Source of the DNA: a virus
Length of the DNA: 52,868 bases
Virus record (IMG/VR): IMGVR_UViG_3300009159_006334
Span: 1 to 52,868 of that record
Direction: 5' to 3' (one strand)
In this document: positions 14,356 to 33,375 of the stretch, one piece after another
Layout: every line of letters starts with the position of its first letter
Numbering within the stretch: position 1 is the first letter of the stretch
Program-made: the position numbers and the translations under genes
The notes under the pieces: generated by a model
The model's database searches: none
Told to the model about the DNA's origin: nothing
Seen by the model: only the letters and a program-made list of their open reading frames with translations

Positions 14356-15429
14356 CTATATAATCTCCTTTTTTACTTCTATGAATTCATACATGTTATG
14401 AAATACTTGTGTATCTCTCCAAACCTTATTAAATTCCTTCTTAAAAAGATCGTGTTCAGGGTGATTAACATCCCACACTTTCTTAAGCTTAAATTCTCCT
14501 TCAGTAAAAGTATCCCAGTTATTTATTTTACCAAAAAACACATGAACCTTTTTGCCAAAAATTGATTTCATTAGCTTTAAAAATGTTTCCATTTCGGCAT
14601 AATTACTATCCTGTACTACAAATGATGTTTTAATGTACTTTAGTACAGGTATCTTTGATATAAAATGCAAGTTGCCAATTAAATTATCCCAATTACCTCC
14701 TAAACGTGTCTTATTTTCATAAGTCTCTCTAGTACCCGCATCTATGCTTATTTCACAGCTCTTAACATAAGGCCATACATTCTTCATACTATCCCACATC
14801 TTCTCATTCCACATTGATGCATTAGTATGTAAGTGTATGTTCTTTAATTTTGGATATTTCTTAGGGTCGAACGTTCGTAAAAAATCTCTAAAGCCAACTG
14901 ATACGAATGGATCACCACTGCCAGTAATAAACATTGTAGATAGGTACTTTGCGAATTTAGTCTCTATTTCTAAAAGAGTAGCTTTTACTCTTTCAATACC
15001 TTTAGAGTTTTCAACAATTAAATCAACTCGACATGACGGACATTTGTAATTACAAGTTCTATCAAATGCAAATTGAATAACAGAAGGTCCAAGATTCATC
15101 TCACCAGTCTCAGCATTATAGTTATCAGTTATGTAGCTTGGTGTATTCTTTCTTTCTACTATTGGATTTACATTATTTAACTTTTTATCGTTTAATAACT
15201 CGGATAAAAACGGACATTGCTTTTTGTCGCAGTACTTATAGGAGCCATCGTGTATTGATTTTCTTATTTCTTTTGCTTCTTCAGAGTTCCAGACTTCATC
15301 TAACGGCTTTTCCATATCTGGAGCAATATTGTTAGGTAGCCACGTAGGGCAGCACATAAAGATAGCTTGATTATGAATTTCAATATTTACAAACGGAGCT
15401 GTACATATGTAATTTTTTAAGTCTCTCAT
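14356..15429 (-). CDS. Radical SAM protein, tandem copy A
   Basis: The 357-residue paralog of 13282-14355 has core ligands C126, C130 and C133 in CNYKCPSC, a TGSGDPF loop, NASMW, and CEISIDAGTRETYENK. N-terminal auxiliary cysteines are C9 (ICTAPF), C26/C27 (FMCCPTW) and C67/C72 (CDKKQC). The family uses S-adenosylmethionine to start radical chemistry on peptides, sugars or cofactors; the specific reaction is unknown. Neighbours are a GT25, an FkbM methyltransferase and a carbamoyltransferase, so a sugar or glycopeptide substrate is plausible. Its stop (TAG) is followed immediately by the ATG of copy B. Confidence 0.85.
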   Translation of the reverse strand: MRDLKNYICTAPFVNIEIHNQAIFMCCPTWLPNNIAPDMEKPLDEVWNSEEAKEIRKSIHDGSYKYCDKKQCPFLSELLNDKKLNNVNPIVERKNTPSYITDNYNAETGEMNLGPSVIQFAFDRTCNYKCPSCRVDLIVENSKGIERVKATLLEIETKFAKYLSTMFITGSGDPFVSVGFRDFLRTFDPKKYPKLKNIHLHTNASMWNEKMWDSMKNVWPYVKSCEISIDAGTRETYENKTRLGGNWDNLIGNLHFISKIPVLKYIKTSFVVQDSNYAEMETFLKLMKSIFGKKVHVFFGKINNWDTFTEGEFKLKKVWDVNHPEHDLFKKEFNKVWRDTQVFHNMYEFIEVKKEII

Positions 15430-16658: not shown

Positions 16659-18212
16659 TTATTTGAAAAACATTTGATTGTTTATTACTAATATATCTAT
16701 ATCTGTTTCTTGGAATGTCTTAAAAGCATCTTCGGGAGTCAGTACCATAGTCTTATCCTTTATATTAAAAGAGGTGTTAAGTAGTATTGGAAATCCACTT
16801 AGCTTTTCAAAACGTGTTAATAGCTTATGCATATTAGTTACACGGTTATGAACAGTTTGTATCCTAGCTGTACCATCTACGTGCGTTACTGCTTTTAGTT
16901 TATCTCTGTATTCCTCTCTTACCTTAACAACTTGATTCATATACGGAATAAAATTATGCGATTCAAAGTAAGTATTTTGTGCGAACTGAGTAACCATTGG
17001 TGCAAATGGTCTAAACATCTCACGTTTTTTAATAAGTTTGTTTATTCGATCTTGCATTCCAGGTAATGTTGGGTTTGCTAAGATACTTCTATGTCCTAAT
17101 GCACGTGCACCAAACTCAATCTTACCTTCGTACCAGCCTACTACCTTTCCTTCGTGTAATTTTTTTGCTATAATATTTAAATCTAGCATTTCTGAGTTAC
17201 ACATTGTAAATTTATACTCCGGACCTAAGAAAGGGTCTTGTTTTATACGATGATGTACAAAATTAGTACAAGCACCAATGCAAGAACCTGCATCTGAAGG
17301 TGCAACAGGTATCCAGATATTCTTATAGGGGGTATTTTCCTTTATCTTACCGTTTGCAGTGCCATTATAGGCACATCCTCCGCTTAAGCATAAATTCTCC
17401 CCTGGATACAGGTTTAAAAAGTGGAATAAAGCTTTTTCGTATATCCATTGAAGAGATGCTGCAATATCTTTATGTCTTTGCTCTATTGGTTCGTCAGGAA
17501 GCCTGTTATCTCCTAGTAGTTCTATTAAATGGTGATTAAACATTACTCTATTACTGCTATTCCACGTGAAATACTTCATATCTACGTGTAGTCCTTTCTT
17601 ATAATTAAGTAATTTCCTAAACTTACCTTTATGCTTTGTCGGATCTCCATAAGAAGCGAGCCCCATTACCTTATATTCGCCTTCGTTTGGTTTAAACCCT
17701 AGATAAGCAGTGATAGCTGAGTATAATAACCCTAAAGAGTGTGGATATTTAACAGTAAGTTCAGGGATAAATTCTCCGTCTACTACCCTTACTATTCTTA
17801 ACGTCTCCTCTTCCCCCACTCCGTCAATACTAACTAGAGTTGCATCTGCAAAGGGAGAACTGTTGTAAGCATACATTAAATGAGACATGTGGTGTTCAGA
17901 AAAGAACACGGTATCACTAAGCTTCTTTAGTTTAAACCATACTTTAATGCCTGTCCACAAGGTTCTAGGTACAGATCTCCAATTATGCTTTAAAGCTCTT
18001 AATAATTTCAAGTGCGGCTTTTCATAATAACATACTACGTCGAACTTATCGGTGTAAGTATCCTTAATATACTGTATTGTATTAACAGGGAAAGAAGAAT
18101 CGTGCTTTATTCCTGTAAATTTCTCTTCTTCACATGCAAACACAAGTTTTCCCTCTTGAAATAGGCAAGCAGCCGAATCGTGATAATATGCTGATATTCC
18201 TAGTACGTTCAT
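16659..18212 (-). CDS. NodU/CmcH-type O-carbamoyltransferase
   Basis: The 517-residue protein matches the family along its length. The N-terminal Kae1-like domain has GISAYYHDSAACL (H11, D12), SEHHMSHLMYAY (H107, H108, H111) and LVSIDGVGEE (D130). The C-terminal domain has CLSGGCAYNGTAN, FGARALGHRSILANP, a REMFRPFAPMV strand and FPILLNTSFNIKDK. These enzymes make carbamoyl-adenylate from carbamoyl phosphate and ATP and move it to a sugar hydroxyl. It is slightly shorter than NodU (about 560-570) but has both domains. Its ATG overlaps the stop of the 38-residue gene (TAATG). Confidence 0.92.
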   Translation of the reverse strand: MNVLGISAYYHDSAACLFQEGKLVFACEEEKFTGIKHDSSFPVNTIQYIKDTYTDKFDVVCYYEKPHLKLLRALKHNWRSVPRTLWTGIKVWFKLKKLSDTVFFSEHHMSHLMYAYNSSPFADATLVSIDGVGEEETLRIVRVVDGEFIPELTVKYPHSLGLLYSAITAYLGFKPNEGEYKVMGLASYGDPTKHKGKFRKLLNYKKGLHVDMKYFTWNSSNRVMFNHHLIELLGDNRLPDEPIEQRHKDIAASLQWIYEKALFHFLNLYPGENLCLSGGCAYNGTANGKIKENTPYKNIWIPVAPSDAGSCIGACTNFVHHRIKQDPFLGPEYKFTMCNSEMLDLNIIAKKLHEGKVVGWYEGKIEFGARALGHRSILANPTLPGMQDRINKLIKKREMFRPFAPMVTQFAQNTYFESHNFIPYMNQVVKVREEYRDKLKAVTHVDGTARIQTVHNRVTNMHKLLTRFEKLSGFPILLNTSFNIKDKTMVLTPEDAFKTFQETDIDILVINNQMFFK

Positions 18213-19160: not shown

Positions 19161-20132
19161 ATGAAAATATTAATAACAGGAGGATCGGGATATCTGGGTT
19201 CAGTTATAACAGGAAAAATGCTTGCATCAGGATACCAAGTAACAGTCCTAGATAAGCTTATATTTAATCAAGTTTCTTTATTATCTTTTACATCTAATTC
19301 TAATTTTAAATTTATACACGGAGATGTTCGCAATGAAAAGCTCTTAGAAAAATTATGTGATGAAGCAGATGTAATTATTCCTTTAGCTGCTATAGTTGGA
19401 TTTCCAGCCTGTGCTGCAGAGCCAGAGTTAGCGGAAGAGGTAAACTTTAATCAGATACGAAATATTGTAAAATTTACAGAGGGTAAGGGTAAGAAGGTAT
19501 TATATCCTAATACAAATAGTGGATATGGAATTGGTGAAAATCAAACAGAATGTACTGAGGAATCTCCTTTAAGTCCAATTTCAGTTTACGGTAAGACAAA
19601 ATGTGATGCTGAAAATATCCTAAAAGAAAAAACAGATGCTATTATTTTTAGATTAGCAACGGTGTTTGGAGTATCTTCTCGTATGAGGACAGATCTATTA
19701 GTTAATGACTTTACTTACAAAGCAATTACAGATAAGTATATTGTTGTATTTGAAAAAACATTTAAAAGAAATTTTATTCATATTGAGGATGTTGCAAATG
19801 CCTTTTTATTCATGTTAGAAAACTACGATACCTATAAAGGTGAAATTTTTAATGTTGGATTAAGTGAAGCAAATCTTTCAAAGCAAGAGTTATTAGAAAA
19901 AATTCAAACTCACGTAAAGGATTTTGCTGTAGTATATGACGATTACTACGAAGATCCGGATAAACGTAACTACATAGTATCTAATACGAAGATAGAAGCG
20001 ACAGGATGGAAGCCAGAATGGGACTTGGATAGAGGTATAAAACAATTAATAATGGCCTATCAAATGATAGTGCCAAAAATGGGCGCAGAATTTAGAAACG
20101 GTTTTCCTTTAGGTTACGCAAATCAAACATAA
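19161..20132 (+). CDS. NAD-dependent epimerase/dehydratase (extended SDR)
   Basis: The 323-residue protein has the Rossmann motif GGSGYLG (7-13) and IIPLAAIVG (72-80). The catalytic S/YxxxK set is canonical: TNSGYG, then Y143-G-K-T-K147. VFEKTFKRNFIHIEDVANAFLF matches the substrate-binding region of nucleotide-sugar 4-epimerases/4,6-dehydratases. It would convert an NDP-sugar at C4 or reduce/oxidise a keto-sugar. It lies 12 nt after the SGNH gene and 1 nt before the RmlC-like gene. Of the three SDR proteins in this operon it is the only one with an intact YxxxK. Confidence 0.88.
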   Translation: MKILITGGSGYLGSVITGKMLASGYQVTVLDKLIFNQVSLLSFTSNSNFKFIHGDVRNEKLLEKLCDEADVIIPLAAIVGFPACAAEPELAEEVNFNQIRNIVKFTEGKGKKVLYPNTNSGYGIGENQTECTEESPLSPISVYGKTKCDAENILKEKTDAIIFRLATVFGVSSRMRTDLLVNDFTYKAITDKYIVVFEKTFKRNFIHIEDVANAFLFMLENYDTYKGEIFNVGLSEANLSKQELLEKIQTHVKDFAVVYDDYYEDPDKRNYIVSNTKIEATGWKPEWDLDRGIKQLIMAYQMIVPKMGAEFRNGFPLGYANQT

Positions 20133-20133
20133 T

Positions 20134-20679
20134 ATGAGCAATAAGTGGGATGAGTTTATAGAAACTCCATCAAAAAAATTCGGTTATCAAGTACCCGTAT
20201 TTACTCCGTCTATCTATAGAGAATATAGAGGTGAAATCTTTTCAACTTTTCACTCAGAAGAACATCCTGTAATGAGACATATTCATTATGATAAAAGTGA
20301 GATTAGTATTCATGGTAGATTTTCAAAATCCTATAAAGGAGTATTAAGAGGTCTACATTACGATAATAAGACTTGGAAATTAGTTCAAGCTACAGTTGGT
20401 GATATCTACCTAGTTGTATTAGATATGAGAAAGCAATCGGATACTTTTGGTGAATGGGAGGCATTTACAATAACTGAGAAGGATAGAAATCAAGTTTTAG
20501 TTCCTCCAGGATTTGCAAATGGACACTACGCTTTGACAGACTGTATGTTCCATTATAACTTATTCTATAAAGATGATTATGTAGATGTAGACGGACAAGG
20601 GGTAGTTAGGTGGAATGATCTAGAGTATCAAATGGAATGGCCAACAGATAATCCAATATTACAAAAAAGAGACAAATGA
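20134..20679 (+). CDS. RmlC-like dTDP-4-keto-6-deoxyhexose 3,5-epimerase
   Basis: The 181-residue cupin has the RmlC core: FSKSYKGVLRGLHYD (63-77, with H75 as the likely base), WKLVQATVGDIYLVVLDMR (81-99) and VLVPPGFANGHYAL (121-134). A Tyr in FHYNLFY (around 141) would be the acid. The canonical GFAHGF is GFANGH here, so the substrate may differ from dTDP-4-dehydrorhamnose. RmlC enzymes epimerise C3 and/or C5 of 4-keto-6-deoxy sugars. Its stop overlaps the next start (ATGA), coupling it to the TPP-enzyme alpha subunit. Confidence 0.87.
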   Translation: MSNKWDEFIETPSKKFGYQVPVFTPSIYREYRGEIFSTFHSEEHPVMRHIHYDKSEISIHGRFSKSYKGVLRGLHYDNKTWKLVQATVGDIYLVVLDMRKQSDTFGEWEAFTITEKDRNQVLVPPGFANGHYALTDCMFHYNLFYKDDYVDVDGQGVVRWNDLEYQMEWPTDNPILQKRDK

Positions 20680-21308
20680 TAAAAAATTTAGAACAGTATG
20701 CAATTGTTAAGGAGCCGTTGTGGGATAGAGCTAGCTTAGAGGTATTTGAAAAAAAGATAGCAGATCATTGGGAGGCTGGTAAGATAAAGGGTCCTGTGCA
20801 TTTAAGCGGAGGTAATGAAGATCAATTAATTGAAATCGGTAAGAGAATTAAATCTACTGATTGGGTATTTTCAACATGGCGTTCTCATTATCATGCTTTA
20901 ATTAAAGGGGTTCCTTCAGAATGGTTAGAGGAAGAGATTTTAGCTGGACGTTCGATTACGATAGTAAGTGAGGAGTATAGGTTTTATGCATCTGCTATAG
21001 TTGGTGCAATTATTCCAATTGCTGTAGGTGTTGCTCTTGCCAACAAGAGAGACGGTAAGGAAGATAAAGTTTGGTGCTTTATAGGTGACATGGCTTTTGA
21101 AACAGGCGGGTTCTATGAAATGCATAAATACGTAACTAATTATGGCTTACCTGTGGTCTTTGTTGTTGAAGACAATGGTGTTTCAACTAATACACCAACA
21201 GAAGCAACTTGGAATGGAATAAAAAGAGAAATACCTAGTGACGTCATTTGGTATAATTACGAAAAAAAGTGGCCGCACTACGGAACAGGAAAATGGGTAA
21301 TATTTTAA
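20676..21308 (+). CDS. Thiamine-diphosphate enzyme alpha subunit (E1-alpha/transketolase-N-like)
   Basis: The 210-residue protein has the TPP-binding motif: IGDMAFETGG (136-145), closing with VVEDNGVSTNT (163-172, N167). STWRSHYHALIKG (66-78) resembles the E1-alpha RDHGHALA region. It is shorter than dehydrogenase E1-alpha (about 330-360), keeping mainly the cofactor domain. The matching beta/pyrimidine domain is a separate gene at 27190-27726. In sugar clusters such pairs transfer two-carbon acetyl units to keto-sugars (for example AviB1/AviB2 in avilamycin). Here the adjacent RmlC-like and SDR genes suggest a branched-chain or C-acylated sugar; that is inference. Confidence 0.83.
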   Translation: MIKNLEQYAIVKEPLWDRASLEVFEKKIADHWEAGKIKGPVHLSGGNEDQLIEIGKRIKSTDWVFSTWRSHYHALIKGVPSEWLEEEILAGRSITIVSEEYRFYASAIVGAIIPIAVGVALANKRDGKEDKVWCFIGDMAFETGGFYEMHKYVTNYGLPVVFVVEDNGVSTNTPTEATWNGIKREIPSDVIWYNYEKKWPHYGTGKWVIF

Positions 21309-23812
21309 AGTTTGTTTACGATGATTGGGATGAAGAAAACAATGTCCCTAGACCTAATAGGTTAAAAACTTATCAACAAGAGGGTACCAACTCGGCATGG
21401 TTAGTTTCTTCTGATCCTATGAAGATTCTTAACCAGGTTACTATTGAAAATTACAAATTAGAAGAGGTAATTAAGAATCCAACTCAAGTGTACTTCTATC
21501 ACGTTTGGTTTAGAGGAAATTTTGAATCTAGTTTTTTTAGCAAAGGAAAGTTACCAGTAGACAATGAAATAATTCGAATAATTAATCAAAATCCAAATTT
21601 ACATTTAATTTTAATGAACGAGCAGGAGTATGAAACTAGAACTGCAGTAAAACAGTTGGATGAGATTGTAAAAAGGTTAAGGTTAAAGCCACATAGGGTA
21701 TGGTTTGTAAACAATAATGAAAAATTAGAGGAGTATAAGCTAGAATCGAGTGCTGGTATAAATGTGCATACTTCTCGCTGCTTAATTTCGCACGTTAAAA
21801 GAGATGAAAATAATGCACTAAGCTTTAAGACTGATAAAGATATTAGTTCTTTCTTTTTATGTCATAATAGATCTCCTAGACCTCAAAGATATGCATTACT
21901 TTGTCTATTAAAAAAATACGGTATATTAGAAAGTGTGGATTGGTCTTTAGTTAATGGTTGGGGTAATGATAAGGTTAATTTTGAGTTAAATTGTTTGCAG
22001 CTTTTTACTCGAGAACAATTTCAAGATTTATCTTCAGAAGCTCAATATTTCGAGTCTATTGAAATGAAGAAAAGTAAATACGAAACTAATCATTTTGAAT
22101 TTGATAATCGTAATAATCAAAGGATATTTTTTGAACATGCTACCTATGAAAATTCATACTTTAACATTGTAACGGAAACTATCTACCATGGAGAAGATAT
22201 ACACATAACAGAAAAATCTTTTAAGCCGTTTTACTTCTTGCAGTTTCCATTAATATTAGCATCGTACCAACATGGCTATTATTTTAGAAAAGCTTATCCC
22301 GAATATGATTTTTTTGATGATGTGATAAATCATGATTATGATAATATAGAAGATGATAAAGAAAGGCTTCTTGCATTTGTTAATGAAGTCAAGAGAGTTA
22401 ACAGCAATAAAGAGTTTTTCATCGAGTTTTATAAGAATAATGAAGAAAGGTTTATTAAAAATCACGAAGTGTGTAAAGCTTACAATTATACACGGGATCA
22501 TGACTTTTTTAAAAAGCTAAGCGAACTACCTGTTACAGGAAATAAGGCATTAAATTTAGTATATGATAATTGGAATGAATATACTCAATATCCGTCAGAG
22601 CCTAATTGTAGGGAGGTTTATACAAATCACTTTATGATTGTTCCTGATATGTCTGTGTTTGCTCTAGGGTTTGGATCAGATCTTATTGTAAGATATCTGC
22701 TAGAAGATATGCCAAAGTACCCCGATAGAAAATTTTACTACTTTATAACATTAATACCTAATTTATTTTTAAGCAAAATTAAAGATAATAAGCTACCGTT
22801 GCCAGAGGAAGTTCTTGATTACTTATTAAAGTACTCAAACTTTAATGTTGTTATAATAAATGAACAAGAATTTGAAACTTTTGAAGCTGTCGAGGCAATT
22901 CATCAATGGTCTAAAGCACTTAACATAAATCAAAAGCAATTGTGGATTTCAAATAATAACATTAAACTAAATGATTATAAAGAAATCTTAAACAGCGATA
23001 TTAATTTTTACACTACATCGTGGGTAAAAAATCACGTTGGTGGGGTAATGCACAACAAAATAGGCGATATACAATATAAACCTAACAAAGAAGGTGCTTT
23101 ATTTCTTTGTCATAATAGAAGGCCTAGGCCTCATAGACACGGATTACTTTGTCTATTGAAAAAATACGGTATATTGGATAATGTTGATTGGTCTTTAGTT
23201 AATGGTTGGGAGGTACGAAGTGAAGATTTGGGTTTTTATTATAATGTTTTTAATGAAGAAGATATTAATTCGTTGTCTGAAGAAATAAACTATTTTCAGA
23301 GTATTGAGCAAAAGAAGAGTAGGTACGAAGAAGAATATACTTGGTTTGATGATAGGGAACATACTAATGGTGTCAATTGGAATGAGACGTACGTAACAGC
23401 TACCTATGAAAATTCTTATTTTAATATAAGTACTGAGACTGAATTTCGTACAGAGGTTATACATATTAGTGAAAAATCCTTTAAAGCATTTTATGCTATG
23501 CAGTTTCCTTTGGTTTTGGCTTCACCGAATCACATTGCTGAGATGAAAAAACATTTTGATTATGATTGGTTTGATGATGTTATAGATCATAGTTATGACT
23601 CGGTTCTTAGTCACAGAGATAGATTATATAAATTTGTCGAAGAGGTTAAGAGAATTAATGATAATAAAGAATTTTTTATAGAATTTTACAAAAATAACAA
23701 ACAGAGATTTATCGATAATCATGAGAAATCCTTAAAATGGTCATCAAATCCAGCCGATAAGAATTTTCTTTTAGGATTATGTGATTTACCTCTTATACCT
23801 TGGAACAAATAA
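21293..23812 (+). CDS. Internally duplicated glycosyltransferase-like protein
   Basis: I chose the ATG at 21293 over a GTG at 21269, because the MGNILKFVYDDW start aligns with the start of the second half (ALNLVYDNW). This gives about 839 residues. Two homologous halves each contain FLCHNRxPRPxR, a YGILxxVDWSLVNGW block, and a TYENSYFNIxTET...EKSFKxFY segment. An FFDDVI- or WFDDVI-type acidic motif and a KEFFIEFYKNN helix complete each half. The TET...TEK/SEK-K motif resembles the donor site of GT10-type transferases and is shared with 7020-8063. The two halves are close even at DNA level. A two-active-site or pseudo-dimeric enzyme is likely. Confidence 0.68.
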   Translation: MGNILKFVYDDWDEENNVPRPNRLKTYQQEGTNSAWLVSSDPMKILNQVTIENYKLEEVIKNPTQVYFYHVWFRGNFESSFFSKGKLPVDNEIIRIINQNPNLHLILMNEQEYETRTAVKQLDEIVKRLRLKPHRVWFVNNNEKLEEYKLESSAGINVHTSRCLISHVKRDENNALSFKTDKDISSFFLCHNRSPRPQRYALLCLLKKYGILESVDWSLVNGWGNDKVNFELNCLQLFTREQFQDLSSEAQYFESIEMKKSKYETNHFEFDNRNNQRIFFEHATYENSYFNIVTETIYHGEDIHITEKSFKPFYFLQFPLILASYQHGYYFRKAYPEYDFFDDVINHDYDNIEDDKERLLAFVNEVKRVNSNKEFFIEFYKNNEERFIKNHEVCKAYNYTRDHDFFKKLSELPVTGNKALNLVYDNWNEYTQYPSEPNCREVYTNHFMIVPDMSVFALGFGSDLIVRYLLEDMPKYPDRKFYYFITLIPNLFLSKIKDNKLPLPEEVLDYLLKYSNFNVVIINEQEFETFEAVEAIHQWSKALNINQKQLWISNNNIKLNDYKEILNSDINFYTTSWVKNHVGGVMHNKIGDIQYKPNKEGALFLCHNRRPRPHRHGLLCLLKKYGILDNVDWSLVNGWEVRSEDLGFYYNVFNEEDINSLSEEINYFQSIEQKKSRYEEEYTWFDDREHTNGVNWNETYVTATYENSYFNISTETEFRTEVIHISEKSFKAFYAMQFPLVLASPNHIAEMKKHFDYDWFDDVIDHSYDSVLSHRDRLYKFVEEVKRINDNKEFFIEFYKNNKQRFIDNHEKSLKWSSNPADKNFLLGLCDLPLIPWNK
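21895..21962 (+). repeat. Internal repeat, copy 1 (pairs with 23143-23210)
   Basis: This 68 bp stretch, encoding the LLCLLKKYGIL...WSLVNGW block of the first half, differs from 23143-23210 at about five positions by my count. Most other parts of the two halves differ far more, which points to local gene conversion or strong constraint. Confidence 0.75.
23143..23210 (+). repeat. Internal repeat, copy 2 (pairs with 21895-21962)
   Basis: Second copy of the 68 bp block, in the second half of the duplicated glycosyltransferase-like gene. It is in the same frame and encodes the same LLCLLKKYGIL...WSLVNGW motif. Confidence 0.75.
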
Positions 23813-23821
23813 AATAATACA

Positions 23822-24754
23822 ATGAAAAAAATACTAATAACAGGATGTAGTGGATTAGTCGGTACACATTTAGTTAAAAAATGTATTAGTTTAGGCTACG
23901 ACGTAGTTGGTGTTGATTTATACTTAAGTAAACATCTTCCAGCAAGCGGATGGTCTTTTATTGAAGCGGATTTGACTAAGAATAACATAATTGAAACTAT
24001 TTTCCTATGTAATAATTTTGATGTAGTATTTAATACCTTTGGAATTAAGGGTTCACCAATGAGGGCTAAAAATAATCCTGTCGATTTTTTATATCCATCC
24101 TTTAAAATTAACACTGAGATTATAAATCAATGTGCGAAAAAGGATATATGGTTAGTATTTGTTAGTTCGGTGGGTGTTTATGCTCCAGCTGAGAGGTTTG
24201 TAGAGGATACGGTGTGGAAGACTTTACCTTCAGAAGCGGATTGGTATCCTGCTTGGAGTAAGAGAACTGGAGAAATTTTATTGGAGGCATATAAGGTACA
24301 ATACGGTTATGATAGGTGGTCAATTATAAGGCCGGCAAACATATTTGGTAAGTATGATGATTTTAGTGGTTTTGGTACTGTCATAGCATCTACAATTAAA
24401 AAAGTTGCTGAAGCGAAGGATGAGATTGAATGTTGGGGAGATGGTTCTCCAATTAGAGACTTTGTCTATGCTGGTGATGTTGCTGATGCTATTATAAAAG
24501 TGTATCAAAAGCAAATAAACGATACTGTTAATTTTGGTTCTGGTATTGAAATTTCAATTAAGGAGATAGTTGATAGCATAGTTAGTATTAGCGGTAAAGA
24601 TTTAAGTATAAAATGGGACGCGTCTAAGCCAAACGGAGACTTAAGAAGGTTAATGGATGTGTCTAAGCAAACAGCTTATAGTATTCTACCTACAACAACA
24701 TTTAAAGAGAGATTAAAAGAAGTATATGAATTCTACACCGATTCCATTAAGTAG
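23822..24754 (+). CDS. NAD-dependent epimerase/dehydratase-like SDR with altered YxxxK
   Basis: The 310-residue protein has GCSGLVG (8-14) and an LVFVSSVGVYAPAE strand with the catalytic Ser. WGDGSPIRDFVYAGDVADAI is a strong GDP-fucose-synthase/epimerase substrate loop. At the active site the sequence is W-Y142-P143-A-W-S-K147: the residue four before the Lys is Pro, with Tyr one step earlier. So the classical YxxxK spacing is broken. It is otherwise intact and probably binds NAD(P) and an NDP-sugar. It follows the duplicated GT gene by 9 nt and overlaps the oxygenase gene by 29 nt. Confidence 0.85.
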   Translation: MKKILITGCSGLVGTHLVKKCISLGYDVVGVDLYLSKHLPASGWSFIEADLTKNNIIETIFLCNNFDVVFNTFGIKGSPMRAKNNPVDFLYPSFKINTEIINQCAKKDIWLVFVSSVGVYAPAERFVEDTVWKTLPSEADWYPAWSKRTGEILLEAYKVQYGYDRWSIIRPANIFGKYDDFSGFGTVIASTIKKVAEAKDEIECWGDGSPIRDFVYAGDVADAIIKVYQKQINDTVNFGSGIEISIKEIVDSIVSISGKDLSIKWDASKPNGDLRRLMDVSKQTAYSILPTTTFKERLKEVYEFYTDSIK

Positions 24755-25424
24755 CTTTCTAGAAGAAGGTGCTTATGTTGGTAATTTATATGATTTTATT
24801 GATGCAAATGAAATGACTCAAGTAGAGTCTAAAATTAAAGGTATTTGTAGTTATGTTGAATCAGATAGAGAGTCTATTTTAAAATGTAGATACGATTACG
24901 CACCTGAGCTTCAAAGCTATGAGCACTCAATACCTTTAAATCAAATTCTAGAAAGAGATTTATTTATAAAAGAGAATGATTTACGTACAGTACAAAAGTG
25001 GTACGAATTTTCTATGAGTAATGAATACCATCAGTACTTTTATAGCTTATCTAAGAAAATAGTAAATACTCTCTATCCAGATACCGTCATAGATGATAGC
25101 GATAGAATGGGAGATTTTACTCTATACGAAGATGATCATTTTATAAGTGATCATAAGGATGGTTACAGTAACGGTAGGTTATGTGTTTTAATTATGTATT
25201 TAAGTAGTGAGGCGGATTATAACAATGGCGGCGGTGAATTAATTATAACTACAAATTCAAGTACTCAACATACAGTAAAGCCTCTATTAGGTACTTTCAG
25301 TATTATGGATTTTTCAAAAAGTGATTTGATTCATGAAGTCAAAGCGGTAAAGAATGGATTTAAAAGATACTCTTTTATTAATTTTTTTAAAGTTAAAAAT
25401 GTAGAGAATAAAATAACAATATGA
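24726..25424 (+). CDS. 2OG-Fe(II) oxygenase (prolyl-hydroxylase-like)
   Basis: The 232-residue protein has the complete set of 2OG oxygenase residues. H143 and D145 lie in ISDHKDGYSNG, the distal H203 in DLIHEVKAV, and R214 in FKRYSFINFF. VLIMYLSSEADYNNGGGELII is the characteristic strand-turn of P4Hc-type enzymes. It probably hydroxylates an amino-acid side chain or a sugar-linked substrate. Its start lies inside the end of the preceding SDR gene (29 nt overlap) and its stop overlaps the next start (ATGA), so it is firmly part of the operon. Confidence 0.83.
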   Translation: MNSTPIPLSSFLEEGAYVGNLYDFIDANEMTQVESKIKGICSYVESDRESILKCRYDYAPELQSYEHSIPLNQILERDLFIKENDLRTVQKWYEFSMSNEYHQYFYSLSKKIVNTLYPDTVIDDSDRMGDFTLYEDDHFISDHKDGYSNGRLCVLIMYLSSEADYNNGGGELIITTNSSTQHTVKPLLGTFSIMDFSKSDLIHEVKAVKNGFKRYSFINFFKVKNVENKITI

Positions 25425-26395
25425 TAAATAAAAATTCCAAAATATTAATTACTGGTGGTTCGGGATTAGTGGGACAAAATTTAACCGAAAGATTACTTAG
25501 AGAGGGGTACACTAATCTAAGAGTTAACTTACATAAAAGAGGTGTTAGAACCGTTCATGATGGTGTTCATTACACGTATCATGATCTACAGGCGTATGAA
25601 GGATGTTTAACTGCAACAAAGGAAGTTGATATCGTATTTCATGCTGCTGCCTCTACATCTAATGCGGTTGATACTGTTGTTGACCCCTTAGCACATGTCA
25701 CACCAAATGTAGCAATGAATAACTTCCTAATTGATGCTAGTTGGAGAAATAAAATACAGCACTATATCTTTATTTCATCTAATACAGTTTATCCTCCAAA
25801 GGGTGATGAACCTGTTATTGAAACCGATTTCTTATTCGATGAGCCTTACCCTGTTTATTTTCCTGTGGGGTGGATGAAAAGGTATGCTGAAGTTCAGTGT
25901 GAGTTATACGGTAAGTATTTACCTGTTAAAATGAAATGTACTGTTGTTAGACCAGCTAACTTATTTGGCCCTCATGATAAATACGACTTTAATAAATGTC
26001 ATGTAACTCCAGCAACTATTCGCAAAGTAGCAGATAAAATGAATCCGATTCCTGTTTGGGGGGATGGAAGTGAGTTAAGAGATCTTTTATATATTGAAGA
26101 TTTTATAGAAGCATTACAAGTTATTATGGAAAATGAAGTTGAAATGTTTGAAGTATATAATGTTGGCTCAAATAAGGTATATTCAGTATTAGAAGTATTG
26201 GAGATAATGAAGGTAATTGCAAATTACAATGCTCCAACTGAATTTATTAGTGGTAAACCTTCTATGATACCGACACGTAAAATAAATTCAAATAAAATTA
26301 AAGAAAAACTAGGTTGGGAGGCAACAACAAGTCTTGAATCTGGTTTAAAAAACGCTTACAATTGGTATAAAGAAAATGAAAACGAATTCAAATAA
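25421..26395 (+). CDS. GDP-fucose-synthase-like SDR, catalytic Tyr position occupied by Val
   Basis: The 324-residue protein has GGSGLVG (12-18), VFHAAASTSN, and IFISSNTVYPPKGDEPV with the catalytic Ser. VVRPANLFGPHDKYDFNKCHVTPATIRK and VWGDGSELRDLLYIED are very close to the GDP-L-fucose synthase (GMER) substrate region. The active site reads Y145-F-P-V149-G-W-M-K153, so Val replaces Tyr at Lys minus 4. Either another Tyr serves as acid or the enzyme has changed function. The GMER-like body would fit supply of GDP-fucose to the fucosyltransferase-like proteins elsewhere in the window. Confidence 0.86.
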   Translation: MINKNSKILITGGSGLVGQNLTERLLREGYTNLRVNLHKRGVRTVHDGVHYTYHDLQAYEGCLTATKEVDIVFHAAASTSNAVDTVVDPLAHVTPNVAMNNFLIDASWRNKIQHYIFISSNTVYPPKGDEPVIETDFLFDEPYPVYFPVGWMKRYAEVQCELYGKYLPVKMKCTVVRPANLFGPHDKYDFNKCHVTPATIRKVADKMNPIPVWGDGSELRDLLYIEDFIEALQVIMENEVEMFEVYNVGSNKVYSVLEVLEIMKVIANYNAPTEFISGKPSMIPTRKINSNKIKEKLGWEATTSLESGLKNAYNWYKENENEFK

Positions 26396-27209
26396 AATAA
26401 CTAAAGGAATTGTATTTGGTGGTTGTTCTTTTACATGGGGACAGGGCCTTTACTACTATTCTAATTTAGAGACTTTAAAAGAACCTCTACCTGATTGCTA
26501 TGATAGTAAGTTAGTTACTGATGCTCATAAGCGATATGGTGCAACATTAAGATATCCAAGACTTGTGGCAAATCATTTTAATACTTTTGAAGTATGTATG
26601 TTACAAAACGGTGGATCCGAAGAAACTACTTTTGATTATTTGAGAAAAGTATTTGGCTTAGAAGAAAACTGTGATCATTTATTTACTGAATCATTATCTT
26701 TTAGTGAGCTTGAATATATTATAATACAAACTTCACAGCCTAATAGAAATTCTTTTACTTATACTTTAGATGGTAGTCAGCATTACTACAAAATAGATTC
26801 GCCAGAAACAAAAGACCTCTTTTACAAATGGCTAAGTCAAGAAAAAATAGAGTTTGAAGATTGGTACTCGAGTCATGTTAAAAGTGTATTTAATCAGTTA
26901 AAAGAAAACATGTTTTTTTACGAATCTAAAGGAATAAAGACATTATTTCTTAATTGGGAAGAAGATTATTCGTCTTTAATCAAAGAAGATACTTACATGT
27001 CAGAAAGATTTATATCTTTAGAGTATAGAGGTAAGAATTACGAATGTATTCGCCATTTAATGGATGAAAATAAACACTTAACCATTAATAGCGATTACGA
27101 ACATTTTGAAATACCTCCTACCGATCATCACCCTTCAAAAGAATGTCATGAAGTTATGGCTACAAACATTATAAAAAAAATAAACAACAATGGAAAAAAA
27201 CTTATATAA
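26376..27209 (+). CDS. SGNH-like hydrolase, GCSFTWG subtype
   Basis: The 277-residue protein begins after a short basic leader with IVFGGCSFTWGQG (G16, C17, S18). QNGGSEETTFDYL follows in the region of the block II/III residues. The C-terminal DHHPSKECHEVMATNII holds the Asp-His pair (around 250-252). It belongs to the same broad class as 18408-19148 and is a little longer. Its 5' end overlaps the fucose-synthase-like gene by 20 nt and its 3' end overlaps the TPP beta gene by 20 nt. Confidence 0.7.
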   Translation: MKTNSNKITKGIVFGGCSFTWGQGLYYYSNLETLKEPLPDCYDSKLVTDAHKRYGATLRYPRLVANHFNTFEVCMLQNGGSEETTFDYLRKVFGLEENCDHLFTESLSFSELEYIIIQTSQPNRNSFTYTLDGSQHYYKIDSPETKDLFYKWLSQEKIEFEDWYSSHVKSVFNQLKENMFFYESKGIKTLFLNWEEDYSSLIKEDTYMSERFISLEYRGKNYECIRHLMDENKHLTINSDYEHFEIPPTDHHPSKECHEVMATNIIKKINNNGKKLI

Positions 27210-27726
27210 AAATGCGCTCCTAAACTCAATGACTTATTTGGGTCAACAGCAAGATACTGTTTTCATAGGTCAACAAGTTCTTTGGCAAGGTAATCCAATG
27301 AGTACTACTCTAGTTGAAGTTCCTAAAGATAAATTAATTGAATTGCCAGTAATGGAAGAATCTCAAATGGGAATATCTTTAGGAATGGCTATGGCAGGTA
27401 AATTTGTTATAACCTTTTATCCAAGATGGGACTTTTTAATCTGTGCAACGAATCAATTAGTAAATCATGTAGATAAGATAGTGTTAATGAGCAAGGGTGA
27501 GTGGAAATCCAACATTATTATTCGCTTAGGTAAAGGATCGGATAAGCCTTTAGATCCAGGACATCAACATAAAGGAAACTACTTAGAAGAATTTAAATCT
27601 ATGTGTCCAAATATTACTTTTTGGAATTTAGATAAGCCGGATAATATTGAAGAAACTTATAAAACTGTTTATGCGTCGGGCGGGATGCATATTATTATAG
27701 AGTATCCTGAGCTATACTACGCTTAA
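27190..27726 (+). CDS. Thiamine-diphosphate enzyme beta subunit (E1-beta/transketolase-Pyr-like)
   Basis: The 178-residue protein matches the pyrimidine-binding half of E1-beta enzymes. ELPVMEESQMGISLGMAMAG (51-70) contains the Glu that activates TPP (E56 or E57), and NQLVNHVDKI (88-97) matches the NHAAK helix. It lacks the C-terminal transketolase-C domain normally present in E1-beta (about 325 residues). It should pair with the alpha protein at 20676-21308, nearly 6 kb upstream in the same operon. It ends the plus-strand block: its TAA is directly followed by the reverse-strand stop of 27727-28131. Confidence 0.82.
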   Translation: MEKNLYKNALLNSMTYLGQQQDTVFIGQQVLWQGNPMSTTLVEVPKDKLIELPVMEESQMGISLGMAMAGKFVITFYPRWDFLICATNQLVNHVDKIVLMSKGEWKSNIIIRLGKGSDKPLDPGHQHKGNYLEEFKSMCPNITFWNLDKPDNIEETYKTVYASGGMHIIIEYPELYYA

Positions 27727-28131
27727 TTACCAACTAATTTCCCAATCTTTAAATTCAGCAGCTAGACAGTCAATTTTATAGTCTTTTCTACCTCCTACTA
27801 TTTCTTGTATTTTGTTTTTTGCAGTATTTCTAATACCGTTAATACCATGTGTTAATGCTAAATTAGATGGTCCTGCAGTTCCTGCTCTTACTGCTGACTC
27901 ATTATGCCAGATATGAGCGTTCATTTGAGATAATACTACAATCGCTCTAATAGTTTCTGCATTAATGGGGGTAATACTACTATCAAGACATATCTGTATA
28001 TCATGAACGATGTCTGCTATTTCTTGTGCATACTCTTCCTTATGTTCAGGTATTTTGACTTCTTTTAACTGTGAAATACTTAATCTATCGATTAATTCAG
28101 CCAATGTTGGTAGGTATTTTCTATTTTCCAT
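27727..28131 (-). CDS. Conserved phage helical protein, unknown function
   Basis: The 134-residue protein starts YLPTLAELIDRLSISQLK, has HKEEYAQEIADIVHDI, and then IRAIVVLSQMNAHIWHNES and THGINGIRNTAKNKI. It closes with DYKIDCLAAEF. I recognise the pattern from marine phage sugar islands, where it accompanies glycosyltransferases, but no biochemical role is known. It is all-helical, with a central conserved HxW-N-E segment. It is the last gene of the operon that starts at 40762, 11 nt after the radical SAM gene, and converges with the plus-strand operon. Confidence 0.65.
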   Translation of the reverse strand: MENRKYLPTLAELIDRLSISQLKEVKIPEHKEEYAQEIADIVHDIQICLDSSITPINAETIRAIVVLSQMNAHIWHNESAVRAGTAGPSNLALTHGINGIRNTAKNKIQEIVGGRKDYKIDCLAAEFKDWEISW

Positions 28132-28142
28132 ATTATAATTTA

Positions 28143-29312
28143 TTACAAATAATTAAATTCAGTTAAATAATCATGTATGCTTAATCCTCTAATATAATCA
28201 ATACTTTTGATATAATCAACGAAATCGCTGTAAAAAATTGAATAATCTTTACTTAATTCGCTAGATAATCGCTTTGCCTTATCTTCTGGTAGTTTTTCTA
28301 AAGGCACTTCTCCTTTAAATAGACTTGCATGTAAGTATTCTGGCCAATACACGTAGTTGTGTTCTATTTTAAAGCCTTTTTGTGTGAAGTATTCGTAGAA
28401 ATTTCCTACATTATGCACATTTAAAGCACTTATTGTTTGAGTAACTCTTATATCAAAGGAATTTCCATTTAATAAGTCTAAATTAGTTTCAGTAACGTCG
28501 AACTTAGATGGATATCTTATATACTCATTTCTTTTTCCTAAGTCGTCGATAGATACGTTTAATTGAACGTTTTTAAATTGTTTCCACAGTTCTATAACTT
28601 TAGGCGTAATTAAAGTTAGATTAATGCTATATAATAACCTTATTTTGCTATTTAATCCCAAGTCGCAAAGTTTTTGTAGAAAGTACAGGTGTTCTTTAAT
28701 TAGCATCGGTTCTCCCCCGTTTATGTATATCTCCTCAAGGTTTTTCGCATTATCTAACAACTCATCGTACCATTTTATATCTTTGTACCAAGTACTAAAG
28801 CTCTTATCAATAGAATAGAAGCCAGATTGAAATTTTTCAGGCAATTCTGCTACATCTTCATTCCATTTGGTACTACTCATTGGATTACACGTTAAACATT
28901 TTAAGTTACAAACATTTCCAATCCGTAATTCAACTACTTTATAATCTAATTGCTTTAATGCACCGTCTTTATTGACCATTTCCTGAAGTTCTTCTAAGCT
29001 ATGTTGATACTTTTCATTTTCGTACATTCTTTTACTTATTCCTCCTGCTCTTTCTAATTTATAACAGCCTGCACACTCTTTAGGTTCTTCTCCACTTAAC
29101 ATTTTAACTCTTACGCCACAGAAGTTTTTTGAATTAGAGATTTGACTTAAAGTCTCTCGTCCTAGTATATTTAAATCTTCATTCTTAGAAAAGGAGAAGC
29201 CATTTGACATGTCTGATTGACAGCAGGGTGTAACAACGCCGTTAGGATGCGTTGCTAAGTGTATAAAAGGTAGTACACACGCTTTAGTCTTATTTAAATC
29301 TTGTTCCACCAC
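28143..29312 (-). CDS. Radical SAM protein with N-terminal twitch-like Cys cluster
   Basis: The 389-residue protein has core ligands C135, C139 and C142 in NVCNLKCLTC and the GGEP-type loop in EEIYINGGEPML. It also has IRLLYSINLTL and QLNVSIDDLGKRNEYIRYP in the barrel. N-terminal cysteines C12 (CVLPF), C30/C31 (TPCCQSD) and C80/C83 (ECAGCYK) form a likely auxiliary cluster site. It overlaps the end of the interrupted radical SAM gene upstream by 19 nt and is the last of five radical SAM genes in this operon. Substrate unknown. Confidence 0.88.
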   Translation of the reverse strand: MVEQDLNKTKACVLPFIHLATHPNGVVTPCCQSDMSNGFSFSKNEDLNILGRETLSQISNSKNFCGVRVKMLSGEEPKECAGCYKLERAGGISKRMYENEKYQHSLEELQEMVNKDGALKQLDYKVVELRIGNVCNLKCLTCNPMSSTKWNEDVAELPEKFQSGFYSIDKSFSTWYKDIKWYDELLDNAKNLEEIYINGGEPMLIKEHLYFLQKLCDLGLNSKIRLLYSINLTLITPKVIELWKQFKNVQLNVSIDDLGKRNEYIRYPSKFDVTETNLDLLNGNSFDIRVTQTISALNVHNVGNFYEYFTQKGFKIEHNYVYWPEYLHASLFKGEVPLEKLPEDKAKRLSSELSKDYSIFYSDFVDYIKSIDYIRGLSIHDYLTEFNYL

Positions 29313-29962
29313 TCAATTAATGCTTTATTTTGTGAAAATATCTTTTCGATAACCCCTTTATTATCTCTAAACGCATCTACAAATTCAATTCTTTGTTTAC
29401 CTGCTTTAATTCCTTCACGATAATCTGTAAACTGTTCTTCAAAAGTTTTTTTATTCTTTAAATTTAAAATTGCATCGTAATATATGCCTGTTTTAACATG
29501 GTCTAAGATATCATCTAAGATAGGCTCTAGAATTGGTCTAGGAATCATCAAAGGTGACATTATAATGGAGCTATCAAAAGCAAATGTCGTTTTAATTAAA
29601 GTATTTACATTTAACTCTTTAGATAGATCGTATAAATCCTTAATTGAAAATAACCCTGGAGATGTAATCGTTAAATCAAAGGTAATTCCGTATGAACCGT
29701 AAAGGTCGTTCAAAAATAAGCCCTGTTTAAAGTTATCTAACCAATTATCCCATTTAATTCCATGTCTAACATACTCTACTATCTCTCCTGTACCGTCTAT
29801 ACTCGCACAAACTTGTACGTCTTTAAAATGAGGTAGTAGATCGTAAAGGTTTTGACCTTTGAAACTAATTCTACTTAGGTTAGTGTTGTATCTAATTGTA
29901 ACATTCTTTGATTGACCATTATCAACTAAGTACTTCATTACTTCCCAATGTATGTCCCACAT
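29294..29962 (-). CDS. C-terminal part of a radical SAM gene interrupted by in-frame TGA
   Basis: This 222-codon frame is the direct, same-frame continuation of 29981-30595 after one TGA and six more codons (VGGEPL). It encodes the rest of the radical SAM barrel: MWDIHWEVMKYLVDNG, TIRYNTNLSRISF, and VQVCASIDGTGEIVEYVRHG. It has no cluster-binding cysteines of its own, so alone it cannot be a radical SAM enzyme. The ATG at 29962 could allow reinitiation. If the TGA were read through or corrected to TGG, a single protein of about 433 residues would result. Confidence 0.75.
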   Translation of the reverse strand: MWDIHWEVMKYLVDNGQSKNVTIRYNTNLSRISFKGQNLYDLLPHFKDVQVCASIDGTGEIVEYVRHGIKWDNWLDNFKQGLFLNDLYGSYGITFDLTITSPGLFSIKDLYDLSKELNVNTLIKTTFAFDSSIIMSPLMIPRPILEPILDDILDHVKTGIYYDAILNLKNKKTFEEQFTDYREGIKAGKQRIEFVDAFRDNKGVIEKIFSQNKALIEWWNKI

Positions 29963-29980
29963 TAAAGGCTCACCTCCTAC

Positions 29981-30595
29981 TCAATAAATCTCTTCTATTG
30001 AACCATCTTTTACTGCATTCCACAATTCAACCTCCGTAACTTCTTCTTTAAACTTTTTGAACTTGTCTTGGTTTATTTTACTATAAAAGGGTTCTCTTTT
30101 TTCATCAACTCCCATAATCTTTCTCTCTGCTTCCCATTGTGAACTTAGTAAATCACCACACATTCTACATTTAAAGTTACATAGATTACTTATCCTATAG
30201 TCAAATGAAATTGGTTTCATCGTTGTAAAGCCATTTTCATCTGTCTTTTCAAATATCTCGTCAACTTTATGTGGAAATAGCTTTTTAGTAAAATAGTCTT
30301 TATAGGTATTAATATTTAAAATCTGCTCATTACAGACTTGACATTGTGAAATAGATTCTCCCTGCATTATTCTCTTCCTAAGATCCATCATATAGGTACT
30401 ATTCCAATGTTCCTCTAATGATTTAGGATTAAATGTAGAATCAATGTCTGGATTCTCTAAGTCTAAGTATTGTTTAATATAATCAGCCTTTTCTCTACTA
30501 GCACAACATAAACGTCTTTCACCTTGAGGAGACAAATAAGTATGTGTCCAAGGTGCTACACAGAAGTAGGGACTTAGTTGGTCAGGTTTATTCAT
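29981..30595 (-). CDS. N-terminal part of a radical SAM gene interrupted by in-frame TGA
   Basis: The 204-residue product has the auxiliary cysteines C12 (FCVAPW), C30/C31 (LCCASRE) and C85/C88 (QCQVC), and the core triad C139, C143, C146 in CNFKCRMC. It stops at a TGA (29983-29981) right after SIEEIY, exactly where the reading EIYWVGGEPL is expected. A TGG-to-TGA change at one Trp codon explains it. The truncated product lacks most of the SAM barrel. It may be a true nonsense mutation, a sequencing error or programmed readthrough; the sequence alone cannot decide. Confidence 0.78.
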   Translation of the reverse strand: MNKPDQLSPYFCVAPWTHTYLSPQGERRLCCASREKADYIKQYLDLENPDIDSTFNPKSLEEHWNSTYMMDLRKRIMQGESISQCQVCNEQILNINTYKDYFTKKLFPHKVDEIFEKTDENGFTTMKPISFDYRISNLCNFKCRMCGDLLSSQWEAERKIMGVDEKREPFYSKINQDKFKKFKEEVTEVELWNAVKDGSIEEIY

Positions 30596-31808
30596 TAAAA
30601 AACTTAAAAAGTGAGGGATAGTCTTCTTTTATAATATCATATGTGCTTTCGTCTCTTACATAATCAAAGAAAGTAAAGTTTCTATACTCTGCTTTAATCT
30701 CATCGTCGCTATAATCCTTACTCCACATAAATCTTAGTACTGAATCAATATCGCTCTGATATCTTCCCCAGTCATAAATTCTCCACTTATCCTCTATTCT
30801 CTGTTTTTCACTATTAGGTAGTACTGCGATAGACATATGGTTAGGATAATGTATTATATTATTCCATATTTTAAATTCTGGAGTATTTTGCTTAACCCAA
30901 TCGTGAAATTCTGGTAATCTATAAGCATTTACCCAACTTATAGTATAGGTGTAATTAAATCCTACACCTGGTTTATTTAACTTCTTGTAAAAATCATAAT
31001 ACCTAAGGCAGTTAGCTTTAGTTTCTTCCCAAATACCATTCTTTCTCAAGTATTCGTACATCTTACCTATTCCGTCTACACTTAATCCAATTCCTACCGC
31101 TTTAAAATTAGTACAGATTTTGCTGAGTAATTCTTCGTTAAAAATAGAACCGTTAGAAGACATTGCTATATCAATATTCTTACTATATCCCTTCTCTACT
31201 AAAAACTCTAATACTGTTTTCCACTTCTCAATGTAAAAAGGTTCTCCTCCTACAATTTCAAGCCTTTTAACTTTTTGTCCCCAATCATCTAAGTTGTTCA
31301 AGAATATACTTTCACTACCTCCAGGTTGACCATAAGGCATTAAAAACTTATGTACATAGTCGTTAGTACCTACAGGAACTTCTGGTAGGTTATTTATCTC
31401 TTTTTGCCATTGAGTACTATGTGATGTACCGCAACTTCTACACTTTAAATTACAAGCATTACTTATAATAATTTGATAGTCTATTGGATACTCGTTAACA
31501 GTTTCTGTATTAACTTCAAGTCCTTGACTACTAAAAATATCATTGTAAATTTGTCTCTTACTCTTATAGCCATTAGACTCATCTACCCAACAAGTCTCGC
31601 ATCCTTTAGGTTTTTCTCCTTTTAAAAACTGTTCTCTCAAATCATTCATATAATCACTATGAAAAATATCTTTCACAGAATCATTTTGAACATAGAATAA
31701 CGAACCATCTTCCTTTTGGATATTGCCTTTGTAAATACAGCAGGGTCTAGCAGATCCATTTGGATCGTTAGAGAACCCTGCCCACGGTAATTTACATATA
31801 CTACTCAT
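30588..31808 (-). CDS. Radical SAM protein with N-terminal twitch-like Cys cluster
   Basis: The 406-residue protein has core cysteines C119, C123 and C126 in NACNLKCRSC. The SAM-binding loop is LEIVGGEPFYIEKW, followed by IAMSSNGSIF and GIGLSVDGIGKMYEYLRKNG. N-terminal ligands are C5 (ICKLPW), C23/C24 (RPCCIYKG) and C70/C73 (GCETCW). The layout is the same as in the interrupted neighbour. It overlaps that gene by 8 nt and the upstream radical SAM gene by 8 nt, so the three are translated together. Confidence 0.88.
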   Translation of the reverse strand: MSSICKLPWAGFSNDPNGSARPCCIYKGNIQKEDGSLFYVQNDSVKDIFHSDYMNDLREQFLKGEKPKGCETCWVDESNGYKSKRQIYNDIFSSQGLEVNTETVNEYPIDYQIIISNACNLKCRSCGTSHSTQWQKEINNLPEVPVGTNDYVHKFLMPYGQPGGSESIFLNNLDDWGQKVKRLEIVGGEPFYIEKWKTVLEFLVEKGYSKNIDIAMSSNGSIFNEELLSKICTNFKAVGIGLSVDGIGKMYEYLRKNGIWEETKANCLRYYDFYKKLNKPGVGFNYTYTISWVNAYRLPEFHDWVKQNTPEFKIWNNIIHYPNHMSIAVLPNSEKQRIEDKWRIYDWGRYQSDIDSVLRFMWSKDYSDDEIKAEYRNFTFFDYVRDESTYDIIKEDYPSLFKFFNE

Positions 31809-33372: not shown

Positions 33373-33375
33373 ATT

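Follow-up and report, generated by a model that had tools for sequence, protein, structure and literature searches.

Why a phage should carry the two halves of a thiamine diphosphate (ThDP) enzyme inside a run of nucleotide-sugar genes is the question raised by the IMG/VR virus record IMGVR_UViG_3300009159_006334 (positions 1-52,868, one strand), which comes from a virus infecting aquatic bacteria. The whole stretch of 52,868 nt is called the window here, and all coordinates refer to it. The two open reading frames (ORFs) concerned were found where a first-pass annotation had placed them: PP, of 210 aa (20676-21308, + strand, ATG start), with the pyrophosphate/metal cofactor domain of an E1-type ThDP enzyme, and PYR, of 178 aa (27190-27726, + strand, ATG start), with the pyrimidine-binding domain of the same enzyme. 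We tentatively propose that a cassette formed by SDR1 (a short-chain dehydrogenase/reductase, SDR) or a GMD-type 4,6-dehydratase, an RmlC-like protein and an E1-type enzyme with PP and PYR only makes GDP-activated C4-branched nine-carbon heptoses for glycans of the virion or the host surface, a class of sugars that, to our knowledge, is not known from any phage. If so, PP and PYR, with this putative activity, would be among the smallest ThDP carboligases.

PP matched Pfam E1_dh with an E-value of 3.3e-18 and the NCBIfam model of the pyruvate dehydrogenase (PDH) E1-alpha subunit, TIGR03182, with 2.1e-27, while PYR matched Pfam Transket_pyr with 1.7e-10 and the PDH E1-beta model PRK09212 with 1.9e-10; these domain matches are far beyond chance. 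When the family profiles were compared with the PDB, that of PP gave 1.3e-20 with PDH E1-alpha, 1.4e-6 with 1-deoxyxylulose synthase (DXS) and 0.012 with ordinary transketolase, and that of PYR gave 4.8e-17 with PDH E1-beta and 0.011 with DXS. An identity as DXS or transketolase was ruled out by these values, and the split DXS that the first-pass annotation had named as a refuting outcome was not what we observed. Judged by the profiles, PP and PYR form the cofactor half and the pyrimidine half, respectively, of a PDH E1-family ThDP enzyme, and the profile matches together with the neighbouring genes bear out a two-subunit E1-type enzyme within a nucleotide-sugar gene run. The motifs singled out at first reading were also the functional ones: GDMA...N corresponds to GD137-138 and N167 of PP, and the Glu of MEESQMG to E56 of PYR. 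GD137-138, the metal/ThDP motif, was invariant and N167 nearly so (Asp in cyanophage S-SM2); the catalytic E56 was invariant, H127 of PYR was kept, H42 of PP was equated by alignment with the active-site His63 of E1-alpha, and PP retains the final Tyr-x-Tyr...Pro-His segment.

Both proteins had been described as reduced relative to E1 alpha and beta, and the alignment with full-length E1s agreed. PP is without the C-terminal arm and without a beta-alpha segment, several tens of residues long, that follows the metal motif in full-length E1s, and PYR stops (about residue 178) before the transketolase C-terminal domain; the beta C-terminal domain and the full alpha subunit, by which a component of an E1 complex was to be recognised, are thus absent from PYR and PP. 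No ORF resembling E2 (lipoyl acyltransferase) or E3 was spotted by eye among the ORFs of the window. The pair has in common with PDH E1 alpha/beta the family, the active-site Glu, the metal motif and two His, and is unlike it in the reduced domains and in the Arg at PYR position 79, and also in that no E2/E3 was seen in the window. This Arg was present in all short PYRs and in all 9 long non-housekeeping E1-betas sampled, whereas 7 housekeeping-type E1-betas had Thr, Asn or Phe at that position.

The viral survey comprised 80 loci, which are mutually related, so that the counts represent non-independent samples. PP measured 208-224 aa in nearly all of them and PYR mostly 171-203 aa, and the ratio of nonsynonymous to synonymous substitution rates (dN/dS) between close viral pairs was 0.05-0.18. 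PYR was found, always on the strand of PP, in 72/80 loci, that is, in all loci holding both; in four of the eight loci without PYR the sequence ends within 7 kb of PP. The two genes were adjacent in 11 loci, 0.3-2.5 kb apart in 17 and more than 2.5 kb apart in 43, and because the spacing varies in this way the five-gene insertion of the window is seen as one state of a flexible cassette. The stop of the RmlC-like gene overlaps the start of PP by 4 nt in the window, and the same overlap was present in 52 of the 90 measurable loci, with 16 more in which the called start lies 39 nt upstream. Lengths, dN/dS and synteny ruled out gene decay or a chance split; by these sequence comparisons the reduction of PP and PYR is not decay.

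The genes just upstream of PP indicate which sugar may be involved. SDR1 (323 aa, 19161-20132, + strand), an NAD-dependent sugar-nucleotide oxidoreductase, was 53% identical over 309 aa to PDB entries 6vo6/6vo8 (361 bits, the next PDB match having 95 bits), which we take to be Cj1427, the GDP-heptose C4-dehydrogenase of Campylobacter jejuni. Its similarity to 6vo6 extends over the full length and the triad S120/Y143/K147 is invariant; the acidic Asp-Glu pair of dehydratases is missing, which ruled out a 4,6-dehydratase. Orthologs of SDR1 were present in 55/80 viral loci and in 19/19 extended Omnitrophota loci. The RmlC-like cupin (181 aa, 20134-20679, + strand; Pfam dTDP_sugar_isom, 2.2e-31), a predicted C3/C5 epimerase of a nucleoside diphosphate (NDP)-4-keto sugar, had its best PDB matches in 7ani/8dcl/7m14/8dco (116-118 bits), with the true dTDP RmlC at 82 bits; by sequence, it is closest to the GDP-4-keto-heptose C3 and C3/C5 epimerases, that is, the enzymes of DdahB/MlghB type (PMC7949155). 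The dTDP-rhamnose pathway was rejected, since the heptose epimerases are the nearer relatives of RmlC and neither RmlA nor RmlB was noticed among the genes of the window. Thus, the keto-sugar context proposed at first reading is strongly supported by the PDB matches of both proteins and by the distribution described below, while its dTDP flavour is probably wrong, because GDP-4-keto-heptose is the sugar indicated by both the RmlC-like gene and SDR1.

Cj1427 oxidises GDP-D-glycero-manno-heptose with 2-oxoglutarate as the oxidant (PMC10680097). L-2-hydroxyglutarate oxidase genes were observed in sugar loci that hold E1 and SDR1, annotated as such in one (L190, 22374-23576) and judged by eye in two others (L182, 1469-2701; L183, 1095-2327); their presence is consistent with recycling of the L-2-hydroxyglutarate that a dehydrogenase of Cj1427 type would release.

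The strongest evidence that PP/PYR needs a 4-keto sugar nucleotide as substrate, as read from gene content, is the exchange between SDR1 and the GMD-type 4,6-dehydratase. The distribution was exclusive (ALTERNATIVES): SDR1 only in 55/80 viral loci, the dehydratase only in 17/80 and both in 0/80, so that one or the other was present in 72/80. Either enzyme yields a 4-keto sugar nucleotide, and this common product, together with the exclusive distribution, suggests such a requirement. Viral GMD-type proteins were 64-65% identical, where compared, to the GMD of a gammaproteobacterial locus (L181), and those checked keep the SSE and YAISK motifs; in one group of several loci PP and PYR have the GMD gene exactly between them. 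Mapped on the PP tree, the exchange between SDR1 and GMD requires about 4 changes (bootstrap 3-4; starred branches force at least 2).

The AlphaFold2 model of the window PP was confident (pLDDT 92.4, pTM 0.90), and the top PDB match given by Foldseek was human PDH E1-alpha (7.6e-13). Both proteins match the single PHROG 34187 profile of 405 residues, filed under "unknown function", PP at 6-198 (1.8e-52) and PYR at 238-401 (5.2e-26), in the order PP then PYR; PP and PYR are therefore one protein elsewhere, and the cyanophage protein of this PHROG belongs to the same family. The fused PP-PYR is carried by cyanophages S-SM2 and P-TIM68, annotated as "transketolase central region-containing protein"; in an uncultured phage of 735 kb the pair is split and PYR comes before PP. 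The model of L116, a homologue from Parcubacteria that is fused in nature, had two confident domains (pLDDT 90.4, pTM 0.92) and aligned over both with single-chain transketolases (TM 0.62-0.70). The absence of a predicted interface, the other refuting outcome named at first reading, was not observed for this single chain, which is L116 and not the window pair.

Among the sampled cellular genomes the short family was rare: 21/285 Omnitrophota, 2/369 Gammaproteobacteria, 1/240 Verrucomicrobiota, 1/239 Patescibacteria, 1/198 Desulfobacterota and 1/292 Cyanobacteria, the single positives of the last four groups being the query genomes themselves. Its profile scores were at least 210 bits, against at most 124 bits for full-length E1s. 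The extended Omnitrophota loci hold two UDP-sugar-dehydrogenase-like genes, a UDP-xylose synthase (UXS) homologue just upstream of PP (375 bits to human UXS1), PP, PYR, a GDP-fucose-synthase-like SDR and SDR1, and also a B12-type radical SAM protein, an HddA-like kinase (18/19 loci), an HddC-like guanylyltransferase and a DegT protein. In L181, PP (61% identity) is accompanied by homologues of RmlC, GMD, SDR2, SDR3, HddA, HddC and GmhA, and a separate split transketolase lies beside PP/PYR. SDR1 proteins 50-54% identical to that of the window adjoin full-length E1 alpha/beta in Solidesulfovibrio magneticus, where kinase, guanylyltransferase and DegT neighbours are also present, and on Azospirillum plasmids, where a carbamoyltransferase likewise adjoins the full-length E1. 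In two marine cyanobacterial loci (L182, L183) a fused full-length E1 occurs with GmhA-, HldE-, zinc alcohol dehydrogenase- and SDR1-like genes. Since the same partners accompany both, short and long E1s appear to fill the same slot. A 1.5-kb record named as a Staphylococcus phage (OR850426.1, L107) was set aside; the PDH E1-beta that it encodes is full-length and of housekeeping type, and the DNA is probably cellular.

The heptose kinase HddA was not found in 22/23 large viral contigs, and a complete GDP-heptose pathway in the virus was discarded, HddA being present in only 1/23. The exception is an HddA-like kinase (G1641:C1:37341-38330, L192) on the 238-kb viral contig of locus L061, far from the PP/PYR cassette. 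Because HddA is missing from nearly all these contigs, the viral cassette probably acts after nucleotide activation, on a nucleotide sugar supplied by the host.

The following route would account for these genes. SDR1 would oxidise C4 of GDP-D-glycero-manno-heptose, the likely base sugar, and in sister viruses the GMD-type 4,6-dehydratase would supply the 4-keto group in its place; the RmlC-like protein would then epimerise C3/C5 next to the ketone. PP and PYR would assemble as a 2+2 tetramer with active sites at the PP-PYR interfaces and would work as a stand-alone carboligase, outside any 2-oxoacid dehydrogenase complex. The enzyme would decarboxylate a 2-oxoacid, most likely pyruvate, and attach the resulting two-carbon acyl anion at the C4 ketone; the product, a sugar nucleotide branched at C4, might later be reduced, decorated and transferred to a glycan. 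That a pared-down carboligase of E1 type extends a GDP-4-keto-(hept)ose by two carbons is, with donor, acceptor and product inferred, a proposition for and against which we find the balance about even; the fuller pathway to nine-carbon heptoses we hold as a possibility rather than an expectation.

Several points weigh against this route. The evidence for it comes from sequences and models, and we know of no C4-branched heptose from such viruses. The PDB names 6vo6 only as "putative sugar-nucleotide epimerase/dehydratease", and the relatedness of the viral loci also applies to the SDR1/GMD counts. Neither SDR1 nor GMD was found in 8/80 viral loci, several of which are incomplete, at least L047, L048 and L064 not being so. 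RmlC is not present in the Omnitrophota loci, and no gene for reduction of an acetyl branch was identified in the window, where SDR2 and SDR3 are without the catalytic Tyr. Finally, the R79 signature may mark carboligases in general, because a long E1 with R79 sits in a polyketide/butenolide-type, non-sugar cluster of Streptomyces (L189).

This long relative is also what speaks for an alternative in which a 2-oxoacid carboligase, working alone and located merely beside sugar genes, has an acceptor other than a sugar (chemistry of acyloins or lipid head groups); nearly all other sampled contexts were glycan loci and the SDR1/GMD exclusivity ties PP/PYR to 4-keto sugars, so we consider it improbable. 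An acetyl transfer of AviB type onto another keto sugar, such as UDP-4-keto-xylose made by UXS or a 4-keto hexose instead of a heptose, is unlikely. In its favour, a UXS homologue immediately precedes PP in Omnitrophota, an arrangement paralleled by EvdS6 with EvdU5/EvdS3, proposed for eurekanate (PMC10338323), and GMD-type dehydratases use GDP-mannose besides GDP-heptose. Against it, no UXS turned up in the viral loci, the Cj1427-like SDR1 is common to viruses and Omnitrophota, and the viral RmlC groups with heptose epimerases.

The company of GmhA-, HddA-, HddC- or HldE-like genes, which PP/PYR and the long counterparts keep in bacteria and cyanophages, would suit a transketolase-like precursor enzyme. 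By transferring a ketol (C2) unit from one sugar phosphate to another, it would give an unusual ketose phosphate, and this would feed into the heptose pathway ahead of kinase and nucleotidyltransferase (GmhA/HddA/HddC or HldE). The fused model does align best with single-chain transketolases; this match of folds is expected because E1 chains are separate in the PDB, and alone it is not diagnostic. The sequence is that of an E1 and not of a transketolase, what is invariant among the partners is an enzyme that forms the 4-keto group on the activated sugar, and L181 has its own split transketolase. In most large viral contigs, being without HddA, the product would stay unactivated unless the host did it, and a host-supplied nucleotide sugar favours a late step over such an early one; we regard this alternative as quite unlikely. 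That the sugar genes are functionless, whether as stuffer DNA or as host genes in decay, a possibility once considered for the lipopolysaccharide (LPS) clusters of cyanophages (PMC3037559), agrees with the variability of sugar islands between phages and with the region examined in the related Flavobacterium phage immuto, which shows no sugar island. It is hardly credible given the low dN/dS, the fixed lengths, the invariant catalytic residues and a gene coupling kept over dozens of contigs, and for the PP/PYR/RmlC/SDR1 core it is already largely refuted.

Returning to the proposed carboligase, the closest parallels are AviB1/AviB2, Pau11/Pau12 and EvdU5/EvdS3 (avilamycin, paulomycin, everninomicin), two-subunit pairs of E1 type that likewise occur with keto-sugar enzymes, have no E2/E3 partner (none was seen by eye in the window), are presumed carboligases and have been proposed to add two carbons to a keto sugar (PMC4425429, PMC10338323). 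Pau11/Pau12, homologues of AviB1/AviB2, are full-length proteins of 325/345 aa (PMC4425429). The likeness to AviB1/AviB2 suggested by the first-pass annotation holds as an analogy, with NDP-keto-sugar enzymes in 72/80 viral loci; membership of that group is not claimed, because 210/178 aa against full-length proteins fails on size. By the described sizes the viral pair is set apart as PP and PYR cores without the transketolase C-terminal domain, and it also differs in its GDP-heptose-type partners and its phage carrier. The GDP-heptose pathway of C. jejuni (Cj1427, Cj1430, Cj1428; DdahB/MlghB, DdahC/MlghC) contains homologues of the window SDR1 and RmlC and also has a 4,6-dehydratase entry, like the viral loci with GMD; unlike it, the window is without the kinase and guanylyltransferase that make GDP-heptose, and no ThDP enzyme is described for it in the papers cited here. 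YerE, of yersiniose, resembles the proposed chemistry in placing a two-carbon branch on an NDP-4-keto sugar and differs in being a single-chain flavoprotein of the acetolactate-synthase ThDP family. Carriage of such an enzyme by a phage is not new, since S-SM2 and P-TIM68 already have the fused form; there it adjoins a zinc alcohol dehydrogenase and an HldE-like kinase, whereas in the window the split pair adjoins SDR1 and RmlC. No report of a phage branched-sugar pathway or of the PP/PYR family was found in the open-access literature, and what is new here is the pathway context of PP/PYR (SDR1, RmlC, GMD).

In the PP tree the main viral group was nested within cellular short PPs, with L181 as the nearest cellular row (95/86), and the fused cyanophage group was separate, together with Parcubacteria and a Prochlorococcus single-cell contig; this topology makes at least two entries into viruses likely. 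The short family stands on a very long stem (1.9 changes per column) in a tree without a placed root, so the source E1 group is not readable from it. A Bacteroidota host is a reasonable guess, because the tail sheath (1393-3510, - strand) was 47.8% identical over its full length to that of immuto, and the lack of a sugar island in the corresponding immuto region suggests that the island was recently gained.

All genes from SDR1 to PYR lie on the + strand and either overlap slightly or are separated by very small gaps, which makes an operon of the PP to PYR run plausible. Five genes do lie between the two, as had been noted, and only two of them, both SDRs, are clearly sugar-related. PP is followed by a putative two-module protein of 847 aa (21269-23812, + strand), whose true start is probably the ATG at about 21293; it has no significant Pfam match and no PHROG family, and its relatives occur in many loci, often between PP and PYR. 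SDR2 (23822-24754, + strand) is a GDP-fucose-synthase-like extended SDR (Pfam NAD epimerase type) with the Tyr of YxxxK replaced (PAWSK), and SDR3 (25421-26395, + strand), GDP-fucose-synthase/GDP-mannose-epimerase-like, has VGWMK at this site. Both keep the Ser region and the Lys, relatives show PGWAK, GGWAK and VAWMK (L002, L109, L181), and they are possibly a distinct, putatively non-redox extended-SDR group. Between them lies a 2-oxoglutarate-Fe(II) oxygenase-like protein (24726-25424, + strand; Pfam 2OG-FeII_Oxy_3, 6.4e-9), an accessory gene missing from some relatives. A protein of 277 aa (26376-27209, + strand), without Pfam match and SGNH-like by eye only, overlaps the PYR start, and its relatives adjoin PYR in many loci. 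Tail to tail with PYR stands a 134-aa protein (27727-28131, - strand; DUF4254 at 6e-4, below the cut-off), found in 43/80 viral loci, mostly at 70-80% identity, and conserved more than most neighbours. A NodU/carbamoyltransferase-like protein (16659-18212, - strand), a candidate for a decoration step, was present in 28/80 viral and 5-6 Omnitrophota loci.

Elsewhere in the window, two clusters of radical SAM/SPASM type, with several paralogous genes, flank the sugar genes (13282-15429 and 28143-35320, - strand), a density unusual for a phage. An adenylylsulphate-kinase-like gene (Pfam, 7e-19), a small cytidylyltransferase-like gene and a sulfotransferase-looking ORF without Pfam match (4844-6401, - strand) form a possible 3'-phosphoadenosine 5'-phosphosulphate (PAPS)/sulfation module, seen also at the end of L035. 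A 620-aa protein (11352-13214, - strand) ends in an intein/Hint splicing domain (Pfam Intein_splicing, 8e-15). A Galactosyltransferase (GT7-like) domain is fused to a LamG/ConA-like lectin domain at 35320-36753 (- strand), possibly virion-associated, and probably a second GT7-like/lectin fusion, recognised by eye only, follows at 36750-38162 (- strand). Rfam and tRNA scans of the window gave no matches.

The analysis provides a function hypothesis with named substrates for a widespread phage family, PHROG 34187, until now filed as of "unknown function", and it bears on the question of whether polysaccharide clusters of phages are functional or stuffer (PMC3037559): the core genes are under strong purifying selection and keep one enzymatic logic while the 4-keto-forming enzyme is swapped. 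If the carboligation is true, a ThDP enzyme cut to its two catalytic domains would be a possible compact biocatalyst, and viruses would have acquired a bacterial route to branched, high-carbon sugars.

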